Source of the DNA: Leptolyngbya ohadii IS1
GTDB lineage: Bacteria > Cyanobacteriota > Cyanobacteriia > Elainellales > Elainellaceae
Assembly: GCF_002215035.1 (NCBI RefSeq)
Contig: NZ_NKFP01000006.1
Span: forward strand, 13,083 to 77,082
Direction: 5' to 3'
Length of the DNA stretch: 64,000 nt
Below, in pieces: positions 52,755-55,011 of the stretch; positions within the stretch are counted from its first letter, which is position 1; each line of letters starts with the position of its first letter. The translations under genes were made by a program, and so were the position numbers. Under the pieces are notes generated by a model that ran no database searches, was not told the DNA's origin, and saw nothing but the letters and a program-made list of their open reading frames with translations.

Positions 52755-52845
52755 GGGAAGTTTGTGAACCCTGAAGATCCCCCCTAGCCCCGCTTAGAAA
52801 GGCTACGGTGCACAAGTCGCATCTGTGGGTGTTCTAGCCTTTGTC

Positions 52846-52876
52846 GCCCCCTAAATCCCCCAATTCTGGGGGACTT
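52846..52876. repeat. Palindromic CCCCCTAAATCCCCCAATT repeat
   Basis: A full copy of the CCCCCAATTCTGGGGG family, ending in GGGGGACTTG. It lies in the 298-bp convergent spacer between the TetR gene and the symporter gene. Confidence 0.85.
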
Positions 52877-52952
52877 GTAATCCTTGCCCACCGAGAAATC
52901 GGGTCAGATGACGAGCGAAAGATCATTTGATCAAATAGTTGGAAAAGGTTTC

Positions 52953-52985
52953 AAAGTCCCCCAAGTTTGGGGGATCTAGGGGGCG
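52953..52985. repeat. Palindromic repeat, inverted copy
   Basis: AAAGTCCCCCAAGTTTGGGG followed by GATCTAGGGGGCG is the reverse-complement orientation of the copy at 52846. The two face each other 76 bases apart, so a transcript through the spacer could form one large hairpin ending both convergent genes. Confidence 0.8.
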
Positions 52986-53052: not shown

Positions 53053-54549
53053 TTAATCCGTTAACTCTGGCACTGCCTCCACCCGATCGCGGTAGGGCTG
53101 AATTTTTGTTTGCAGAATCGAAAAGTCAAACAGTTCCGCGTTTCGCCGGGAGCCGATCGCCGTCCAGATCAGCACGATCGCACCGGAGACAAGGATTGGC
53201 ACGATAAAGCTCACCAGCAGATCGCCTGCAAAGGGCAGTCCCGTCCAGGGAGTGAAGTCGGGTTTGGGGAAGAATAAAGCACCCGCAGCGATGCCAATCA
53301 CCGAACTCCAGAGGGCGATCGTGCCATTTAGCCGACGGGCATAGAGTCCGTAGATCACCGGGAAGACGGCTCCCGCGCAGACCAGATCGGCAAGCAGAAA
53401 CAGATACAGAACGTTAAATCCTTGGGCGGCAATTCCGATCGCCGGAAGACCGATCGCCACCGTAATCACGCGGGACGCGCGAAGCAATCCGCTCGTTTGC
53501 AGATGGGGCATCAGTCGCATTAGATCCCCGGTAAACAGACTGGCAACGCCGTTCAGCAGGGAAGACATCGTACTCATGACCAATGCCAGTGCCAGCACCA
53601 GCACCCCCATCAGGAACCAGACGGGCGGTTCCAGCCGCTCCATCAGCGAGAAGAAGGCGCGATCGTCCGTGAAGCCAAACTGGCTGGCGATTAAACCTAG
53701 CCCACCTGCAATACAGAGCATCGGCACTGTTGCGATCGCTGCCCCAAAGAAAGCGCGAGTCACAGTGGCATTGCTGCGGCAGGCATAGATTCGCTGCCAG
53801 TTGGTCTGGTTAAACATTTCGGCGGCAATAATGGCAATGATGAGCGTCGCGCCGAACTTAATGCCGGGAAGATAGCCAAACGACAGCAGTTCCGGCGTAT
53901 TGACTTGAATGGGCTGAAGGGCAGCCCCAAATCCATTCAGGGAGACGATCGCCACCGCTGCACAGATCGCCAGCAAGGGCACAATCACGACGAGCTGCAC
54001 CGCATCCGTGAACACCGTCGCGCCCAGCCCCCCGTAGGTTGTGTACAGAAACGTCGCTGTAATTACTACGAGCGCAGTCCAGCCCAAAGGCACATCCGCC
54101 ATAATCTGCACCGCTTTCGCGATTCCGGTCAGCTCTGCCGTCAGGTAAATAAACATATAGAACACGATGATCGCCAGCGTTAGCCCATACATGGCGTTGC
54201 CAAAGCGATGCAGGACGTACTCATTCAGCGAATGTCCGTGGGGCATCAACTGACGAATCCGGGGACCAATCAGCGAAATAATCGCCGCCGGAGCTGCCTG
54301 TGCCAGCCCATAGCCCACAATGCCAGCAATGCCGCTGGTTGCGCCCACTTCCGGAACGCTAAACAAAATCCACACGCCCATCGCGGAAGCCAGAATCGTG
54401 GCAAAGGCAAGCCCGCTGCCAAATCGATTGCGGCTAATCAAATATTCTTCTAAGTTAATCGTTTGCTGACTGGCGTGGATCAGCCCCAGCAGCGCAAAGC
54501 CGCCTGCCGTCACCAGCAGCACCATCAGTCCGATCGCTTCAACCGTCAT
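53053..54549 (-). CDS. Sodium/solute symporter under TPP riboswitch (ThiV-like candidate)
   Basis: The 498-residue membrane protein belongs to the sodium:solute symporter family (PutP/PanF-like) with about 13 helices. Family words include EEYLISRNRFGSGLAFATI, GYGLAQAAPAAIISLIGPRI, YTTYGGLGATVFTDAVQ, NQTNWQRIYACRS and MSTMSSLLNGVASLFTGDL. The substrate cannot be read from these alone, but a TPP riboswitch lies in its leader (54741-54832, minus). TPP-controlled PanF-like symporters called ThiV have been predicted elsewhere to import thiamin precursors such as hydroxymethylpyrimidine. Uptake of thiamin or a precursor is therefore the best hypothesis. No other thiamin gene is in the window. Confidence 0.9.
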   Translation of the reverse strand: MTVEAIGLMVLLVTAGGFALLGLIHASQQTINLEEYLISRNRFGSGLAFATILASAMGVWILFSVPEVGATSGIAGIVGYGLAQAAPAAIISLIGPRIRQLMPHGHSLNEYVLHRFGNAMYGLTLAIIVFYMFIYLTAELTGIAKAVQIMADVPLGWTALVVITATFLYTTYGGLGATVFTDAVQLVVIVPLLAICAAVAIVSLNGFGAALQPIQVNTPELLSFGYLPGIKFGATLIIAIIAAEMFNQTNWQRIYACRSNATVTRAFFGAAIATVPMLCIAGGLGLIASQFGFTDDRAFFSLMERLEPPVWFLMGVLVLALALVMSTMSSLLNGVASLFTGDLMRLMPHLQTSGLLRASRVITVAIGLPAIGIAAQGFNVLYLFLLADLVCAGAVFPVIYGLYARRLNGTIALWSSVIGIAAGALFFPKPDFTPWTGLPFAGDLLVSFIVPILVSGAIVLIWTAIGSRRNAELFDFSILQTKIQPYRDRVEAVPELTD

Positions 54550-54740
54550 GGCACAATTTCCCTAACTTGATTCCTGAACTTAATTTCTGAACATGAATAC
54601 AAGCCGAGGGTGTAAGGAGAAATCACCTCGTCTAGCGACGATCGACTCTAGATCAGCTTCAACAGACCGCACAGACCCACTGCACAGCCTTTTTGTTGAT
54701 TAAATTCGATCGCCCGTCGGTTTTGGTGCAAAAGACCGCA

Positions 54741-54832
54741 ATCAACGCTTTCCTACGCTGGCATTACCCAGTCTCAGGTTCCGAGGGTGTACTCTCAGCC
54801 CAATCCAGTCGATCGGGCACCCCTAGCTTAGG
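54741..54832 (-). promoter_or_regulatory. TPP (THI element) riboswitch
   Basis: Read on the minus strand, the conserved parts of the thiamin pyrophosphate aptamer occur in order: AGGGGTGCC (P1/P2 start), GGCTGAGAG (pyrimidine-sensor CUGAGA, 54793-54798), ACCCTCGGAACCTGA, and GGGTAATGCCAGCGTAGGA (pyrophosphate side). The flanks AAGCT and AGCGTT can pair as P1 with one bulge. The match is as close as in textbook thiC leaders. The aptamer lies about 190 bases before the ATG of the symporter gene. The regulatory switch itself (terminator or start-site masking) was not identified; lack of a T-run hairpin favours control of translation. Confidence 0.95.
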
Positions 54833-54894
54833 GGCAATCATACCATTCTGTGGGTTAATTAGAGGCTGCTGGATAAGCGTTATGGGTTTTGCAG

Positions 54895-54925
54895 CCCCCT
54901 AAATCCCCCAATTCTGGGGGACTTT
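54895..54925. repeat. Palindromic CCCCCTAAATCCCCCAATT repeat
   Basis: A full copy with the CCCCCAATTCTGGGGGACTTT core, identical over its length to the copy inside mutS2. It lies upstream of the riboswitch promoter region. Confidence 0.85.
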
Positions 54926-54976
54926 GAAATGGCAGAACCATACTTTTACAAAAGAAATGCCTGCATTAGTTCATTT

Positions 54977-55003
54977 CCCCCCAATTTTGGGGGATTAGGG
55001 GGG
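54977..55003. repeat. Palindromic repeat, inverted copy next to the SLH gene
   Basis: CCCCCCAATTTTGGGGGATT followed by AGGGGGG is an inverted member of the same family. It lies 8 bases after the SLH-protein stop and may act as its transcript end. Confidence 0.75.
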
Positions 55004-55011
55004 CTTTCCGG

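Follow-up and report, generated by a model that had tools for sequence, protein, structure and literature searches.

A conserved TPP riboswitch-symporter unit in Leptolyngbya ohadii IS1 and other cyanobacteria, predicted to import the pyrimidine precursor of thiamin

The closest described system to the one analyzed here is ThiV of SAR11 (Pelagibacter), which the available part of the source presents as a sodium/solute symporter (SSS) linked to a TPP riboswitch and as a likely importer of HMP (PMC11452348). In the accessible sections of two further papers, Pelagibacterales gene clusters that lack only thiC are stated to carry thiV beside a riboswitch (PMC10881298), and ThiV is counted among the pyrimidine transporters (PMC12637900). 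Cyanobacteria are called prototrophs in the same portion of PMC10881298, and the survey of 14 cyanobacterial genomes in PMC3766115, as far as its text was available, gives thiC as the only TPP riboswitch target. The sequence-only reading that preceded this analysis had likewise named thiC as the usual target in this phylum. A 2021 article states, in its available part, that no thiamine transporter system had been identified so far in cyanobacteria and that thiamine auxotrophy was unreported before, and it describes toxic Microcoleus lacking thiD, tenA, and thiK (PMC8546630). Our own literature search, which covered the titles and abstract openings of open-licence papers, returned no paper on a TPP-controlled symporter from cyanobacteria. 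Systems of this class are known already; what is new, within the reach of these searches, is that one occurs in cyanobacteria, that it is tied to thiC, and that its carriers have lost thiC repeatedly.

The pair described here lies within a 64,000-nucleotide stretch of the Leptolyngbya ohadii IS1 genome, referred to as the window, and its elements are collected in Table 1. A cmscan of the whole window returns a single Rfam match above cut-off, which is to the TPP family and covers the full model (1-105) with an E value of 5.4e-10 and a score of 63.0 bits, above the cut-off of 54.3 bits. The hit is on the minus strand; the lack of an RF00059 match there, which would have spoken against the sequence-only reading, is not observed. 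The symporter ATG is found on the same strand, 183 nt past the end of this match. The sequence-only reading had placed a minus-strand TPP aptamer at 54741-54832, within a few bases of the Rfam match, and an SSS transporter about 190 bases further on; both are the elements recovered here, and CTGAGA and the two further aptamer words that it cited, GAACCTGA and TAATGCCAGCGTAGGA, are all present in the window's aptamer. The aptamer core is invariant in a 22-row alignment, and a TGNTANNNT box, as read from the sequence, stands right ahead of the aptamer in 25 of 25 leaders (the window and 24 relatives). The L. ohadii genome (7.9 Mb in eight contigs) contains two TPP aptamers, that of the symporter and one ahead of thiC; the symporter's is of the same class as the cyanobacterial thiC riboswitch treated in the available part of PMC3766115. 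The TPP match at thiC ends 7 nt ahead of the thiC ATG. The two arrangements differ in that the start codon abuts the aptamer in the thiC riboswitch, whereas the symporter has a separate leader with a B strand and a Shine-Dalgarno strand.

Table 1. Features of the riboswitch-symporter unit, in positions of the window
Feature	Position	Strand	Basis
TPP riboswitch aptamer (RF00059)	54733..54834	-	Rfam, 63.0 bits; one of two in the genome
Candidate extended -10-like box TGGTATGAT, directly 5' of the aptamer	54837..54845	-	read from sequence
Strand A, aptamer 5' strand AAGCTAGGGGTG	54818..54829	-	invariant among 22 aligned aptamers
Strand B ACACCCTCGGCTTG, able to pair with A (one mismatch) or with the Shine-Dalgarno strand	54600..54613	-	A:B duplex -17.9 kcal/mol
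Strand C CAAGTTAGGGAAATTG, Shine-Dalgarno-bearing, pairs with B	54554..54569	-	B:C hairpin in the whole-leader minimum-energy fold
Sodium/solute symporter (SSS), predicted HMP/pyrimidine importer, ThiV-like	53053..54549	-	ORF, Pfam, NCBIfam, fold, residues, tree

The symporter ORF starts with ATG and encodes 498 amino acids that match Pfam SSF (PF00474) above cut-off with an E value of 4e-21. Its score with the NCBIfam superfamily model TIGR00813 is below the curated cut-off (105.5 of 184 bits), and it is far under the equivalog cut-offs for PutP (TIGR02121, 51.4 of 515.5 bits) and PanF (TIGR02119, 26.7 of 328.05 bits). The AlphaFold model has a pLDDT of 75, and its best 39 Foldseek hits are chains of DUR3, CHT1, SGLT, NIS, SMCT1, SiaT, and vSGLT, which we take to be SSS/SLC5 members. 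The Pfam match and the predicted SSS fold together indicate that the protein belongs to the SSS/SLC5 family. As in E. coli PutP and PanF, which are of the same superfamily, a conserved Ser and Ser/Thr pair occupies positions 326-327, with Ser326 in 67 of 67 rows; sodium coupling is predicted. Unlike those two proteins, to which it is 26% (PutP) and 22% (PanF) identical over partial alignments, its curated scores are far below cut-off and two to three signature residues differ.

These signature residues are taken from the available part of PMC11452348, where HMP/thiamin symporters are described as having in common Tyr78, an acidic side chain at position 139, and Phe254 with a His or polar residue after it (SiaT numbering). 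Their counterparts were placed here through a vSGLT alignment, by which the equivalence to SiaT numbering is presumed. Across the window and the cyanobacterial loci, counted without the two of 68 whose first-stop products are shorter than 300 aa, Tyr80 is found in 63 of 63 ungapped rows, Glu139 in 65 of 66, and Phe246 in 67 of 67, the last followed by a conserved Asn247. All 10 non-cyanobacterial rows have the counterparts of Tyr80, Glu139, and Phe246. At the three positions PutP has L, G, and F-G, PanF has A, Q, and G-L, and two cyanobacterial paralogues have F, N, and A-G. The sugar transporter vSGLT carries Tyr and Phe-Asn-Gln, that is, two of the three residues, so that only the acidic residue discriminates well; PutP carries one. 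This sharing counts against an HMP importer.

The tree places the cyanobacterial rows in a single group (99/100), separate from PutP and PanF. The NCBIfam scores, signature residues, and tree thus rule out a PutP or PanF identity, and the clustering with proline or pantothenate transporters that the sequence-only reading had held out as evidence against itself is not what is seen. Its proposed phylogeny is less decisive about ThiV: the deep branches are long enough to carry a long-branch warning, the two paralogues fall inside an open fork, and no named ThiV sequence is included, so that membership in the ThiV group is not decided by the tree. The comparison with ThiV was made through the one SAR11-like homologue seen (L218), whose ThiV-like identity is presumed. 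L218 is about 30% identical, and its source genome, 1.2 Mb in size and with a GC content of 29% across the stretch examined, appears to be SAR11-like. Like ThiV of SAR11, the symporter is of the SSS family, has a TPP aptamer upstream, and has Tyr, acidic, and Phe-polar residues at positions that appear to correspond; unlike ThiV, it resides in a host that often retains thiC, and its gene often lies directly upstream of thiC. On the best reading, the cyanobacterial proteins would form a branch of their own among the ThiV-type symporters under TPP control.

The unit is real and conserved. In a set of 60 genomes that includes L. ohadii, the symporter occurs in 25, and all 24 close orthologues with upstream sequence have a TPP aptamer ahead of them, three of which (L011, L024, L025) score below gathering. 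Distant SSS paralogues (L029 and L030; 25-26% identity) in two of the carrier genomes have no TPP match. Eighteen carriers possess two TPP aptamers and seven possess one, compared with at most one in each of the 35 non-carriers. Among the seven, six have the symporter's aptamer and no intact thiC, and the remaining genome (G047) has thiC immediately after the symporter. When named genomes were scanned, many of them shared with the 60-genome set, 78 loci were obtained, 68 of them cyanobacterial, with two entries (L188 and L199) being pieces of one gene. Upstream sequence is available for 66 of the cyanobacterial loci, and in 65 of them (all but L180) the aptamer precedes the symporter; in 40 of the 68, thiC lies downstream in the same orientation, no more than 4 kb away. 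By our reading of the rows, a second TPP aptamer stands ahead of thiC in 14 of those 40 loci and in none of the others. The symporter is clade-restricted: at E 1e-60, a phylum sample of 386 genomes contains it in four, and in one of the four (G263) it is broken by a stop. In that genome the symporter copy (L051/L052) is split by a TGA and adjoins a full-length, stop-free thiC; this is a broken importer in a genome that is probably able to make HMP.

Loss of thiC is found repeatedly among the carriers. Of the 22 near-complete carriers (completeness of 90% or more, contamination no higher than 5%, L. ohadii included), six have no intact thiC: a match is absent in G001, G004, G006, G013, and G030, and in G023 the gene is reduced to a 55-aa fragment with a stop. 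All six keep full ThiG, ThiE, and ThiD matches. A seventh, less complete carrier (G035, 77%) is without thiC and also without thiE. Genus-mates retain thiC in g1 (G000), g4 (G022), and g5 (G005 and G033), which gives at least three independent losses, provided that thiC has not been regained; with g6 and g13 the number is likely five. In a class-wide sample thiC is present in 183 of 186 genomes, a total that is our own count and rests on the order of the genome listing, and the three genomes without it (G123, G169, G243) are not symporter carriers. The difference between carriers and class-wide non-carriers (6 of 22 versus 3 of 182 without thiC) has a Fisher p of 5.4e-5, with shared descent ignored and the samples partly overlapping, and that between carriers and relatives without the symporter (6 of 22 versus 1 of 28) has a Fisher p of 0.034, again with shared descent ignored.

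The association has exceptions on both sides. The genomes G045 (93% complete), G021 (78%), and G029 (69%) are without thiC, symporter, and TPP, and together with G123, G169, and G243 they show that other routes, or gaps, exist. At the thresholds used, G123, G169, G243, and G045 have neither a thiC nor a symporter match, and an assembly gap may be involved. A thiC match is present in 42 of another 46 named carriers from the cyanobacteria, so that thiC loss is the minority state; the four without one are G449, G464, G472, and G474, three of which are assemblies of 3.4-4.0 Mb that may be incomplete. On these genome contents we lean toward a reading in which cyanobacteria, usually regarded as makers of their own vitamin B1, have repeatedly become dependent on outside pyrimidine: within one family, three genera or more, and probably five, would have lost thiC while keeping the importer and the other pathway genes, and these free-living phototrophs would be HMP auxotrophs. 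If true, the importer would be an entry step allowing the costly reaction of ThiC to be given up. The combination of a conserved importer with carriers that miss only thiC of the tested pathway genes makes this directly testable in FACHB-8 and FACHB-502 (collection-style names), and the outcome could change which organisms count as a source or a consumer of B1 precursors. Leptolyngbya sp. FACHB-8 and FACHB-502 and Elainella saxicola E1 are among the carriers without thiC.

Homologues from other phyla are 39-44% identical and lie in part inside thiamin operons. A woesearchaeotal locus (L189) has the order TPK, a DAO-family oxidase that we take to be ThiO-like, ThiG, ThiE, symporter, ThiD, and L192 has ThiE, symporter, TenA, and an AIRS protein that is presumably ThiL-like. 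The order in Chloroflexales L183 is TPP, ThiE, hydroxyethylthiazole kinase (ThiM), AIRS, TenA, symporter, ThiW, ABC ATPase, and that in Chloroflexota L186 is AIRS, TenA, symporter, ThiW, ABC ATPase. A TPP aptamer is directly upstream of the symporter in Chloroflexota L194 and L195 and in Lampropedia L196; of 398 genomes from the phylum to which Lampropedia belongs, 12, Lampropedia included, have a symporter match at E 1e-30, and nine of the 12 have a TPP aptamer beside it, one of which is below gathering. L218 is among these matches. For homologues from Poribacteria (L193, L198) and a nanoarchaeon (L187), the scanned ORFs include no gene of thiamin metabolism, and a TPP match at gathering score is absent. 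The occurrence of the symporter together with ThiW and an ABC ATPase in L183 and L186 suggests that each half of thiamin has an importer of its own.

The conserved TPP pairing, the linkage to thiC, the selective loss of thiC, the thiamin operons elsewhere, and the presumed residue counterparts together favour import on the HMP side, and we consider the following scheme probable. At low TPP the riboswitch would permit synthesis of the symporter, which would take in HMP, the pyrimidine precursor of thiamin, or a closely related vitamer, presumably with sodium; ThiD and ThiE would then join the imported pyrimidine to home-made thiazole. The substrate, sodium coupling, direction, and switching in this scheme are predictions. 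The Poribacterial homologues without thiamin genes or TPP, the non-carriers without thiC, and the imperfect B strand of the window count against it. The sequence-only reading had proposed a thiamin-precursor transporter, which the first four of the above lines of evidence support, and had left thiamin, hydroxymethylpyrimidine, and thiazole open; the prediction is now narrowed to the pyrimidine (HMP) side, with HMP or a close vitamer likelier, on the best reading, than thiamin or thiazole.

The E. coli thiM and thiC TPP riboswitches control translation via anti-Shine-Dalgarno strands. A comparable choice, in which one strand pairs with either the aptamer or the Shine-Dalgarno strand, is proposed here from the leader sequences. 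Without TPP, strand B would bind the aptamer 5' strand (A) and the Shine-Dalgarno sequence would stay free; with TPP, the aptamer would hold A, B would pair with strand C, and translation would stop. Most leaders combine the aptamer 5' strand GCUAGGGGUG with a B-type strand such as CGCCUCUAGC shortly 5' of the start codon. Since a gapped duplex search for B gave mixed extended pairings, an ungapped search was used instead, on 58 of 70 leaders (dropping those shorter than 45 nt, those whose last 45 nt duplicate another leader's, and L194-L196). A run of at least 7 nt complementary to strand A is present in 49 of the 58, and 41 of these 49 are 25-38 nt from the start. Runs of at least 8 nt occur in 38 of 58 leaders versus 16.0 expected from dinucleotide shuffles, related leaders not being independent, and full 10-nt runs in 21 of 58 versus about 1.5 expected from the same type of shuffle. 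Taken locus by locus, p 0.05 is reached in 34 of 64, a set that kept near-duplicates and L196. Strand B also pairs with the Shine-Dalgarno strand that follows it, with runs of at least 6 nt in 25 of 47 leaders as compared with 15% of shuffled tails and, in a swap control, 28% of tails of the other B type. Alignment A3 (34 of 35 segments, with L199 left out) shows two such B/Shine-Dalgarno types, CCUC/GAGG and UCCU/AGGA.

These data suggest a translational three-strand switch in most leaders. A strict B pattern has no match in 23 leaders, and the window's own B element is imperfect: its ungapped B:A run is only 6 nt (p 0.156), and it lies about 50 nt from the start. The distance from aptamer to aligned start ranges from 13 to 429 nt; unlike in E. 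coli thiM and thiC, it is mostly 50 to 430 nt, with variable intervening sequence. The shortest distance is that of G006, where the aptamer match ends 13 nt ahead of the start, much like thiC, which indicates that a direct form also exists.

Four other readings were weighed against import of HMP. The symporter may instead carry aminomethyl or formylamino pyrimidine breakdown products that TenA would convert to HMP, which we regard as unlikely: TenA is beside the symporter in L183, L186, and L192, and each of the six near-complete thiC-less carriers has two TenA-family matches, but 27 of the 35 non-carriers have a TenA-family match as well, and in the 25 carriers none lies within 5 kb of the symporter, the nearest being about 9 kb away in G005. 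As a discriminating partner TenA was rejected, since it is present in 52 of the 60 genomes. Import of intact thiamin is improbable. TPP control taken alone fits a thiamin importer, and eukaryotic SSS relatives are described, in the available part of the source, as HMP/thiamin symporters; the linkage, however, is to thiC and to ThiE, ThiD, and TenA, and retention of thiazole synthase, TMP synthase, and HMP-P kinase in the six thiC-less carriers is unexpected with a supply of whole thiamin. It is very unlikely that the aptamer is intact and the long leader does not switch the gene, with the symporter serving an unrelated solute; the range of leader lengths and the imperfect B of the window would fit, but the conserved aptamer, the thiC linkage, and element B across many genera would be left unexplained. 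Import of a thiazole precursor, which the sequence-only reading had allowed and TPP control would fit, is scarcely credible given that thiazole synthase is retained in the thiC-less carriers and that ThiW, an annotated thiamine-precursor transporter whose substrate we take to be thiazole, accompanies the symporter in two Chloroflexota operons. Thus, neither thiazole nor whole thiamin was kept as first choice, because thiG, thiE, and thiD persist in the six carriers, and HMP or a close vitamer is preferred.

Two TPP aptamers were found apart from the arrangements above. In G004, which has no thiC match, a TPP aptamer of 63.9 bits (L117:3136-3235) is followed for about 700 nt by no thiC and no same-strand ORF of at least 100 aa. 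That this second aptamer of G004 marks a former thiC site was rejected, as no remnant is found nearby (best tblastn E 0.34), and the thiC region of the genus-mate G022 has no blastn match to the L117 region; it is an orphan riboswitch. A Shackletoniella antarctica MAG has a second TPP aptamer downstream of the symporter (L182:7731-7827), with no thiC after it within the locus and no thiC match in the genome. This aptamer is overlapped and followed by opposite-strand ORFs.

Finally, both intergenic flanks of the riboswitch-symporter unit in the window (52845-52985 and 54893-55005) contain elements that resemble one another, measure about 110-140 bp, and have inverted ends that start GCCCCCTAAATCCCCCAA. 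The palindrome has seven sites in the window, four of them in these flanks, and gives 13 both-strand matches versus 0.09 expected. The elements look like small mobile repeats.
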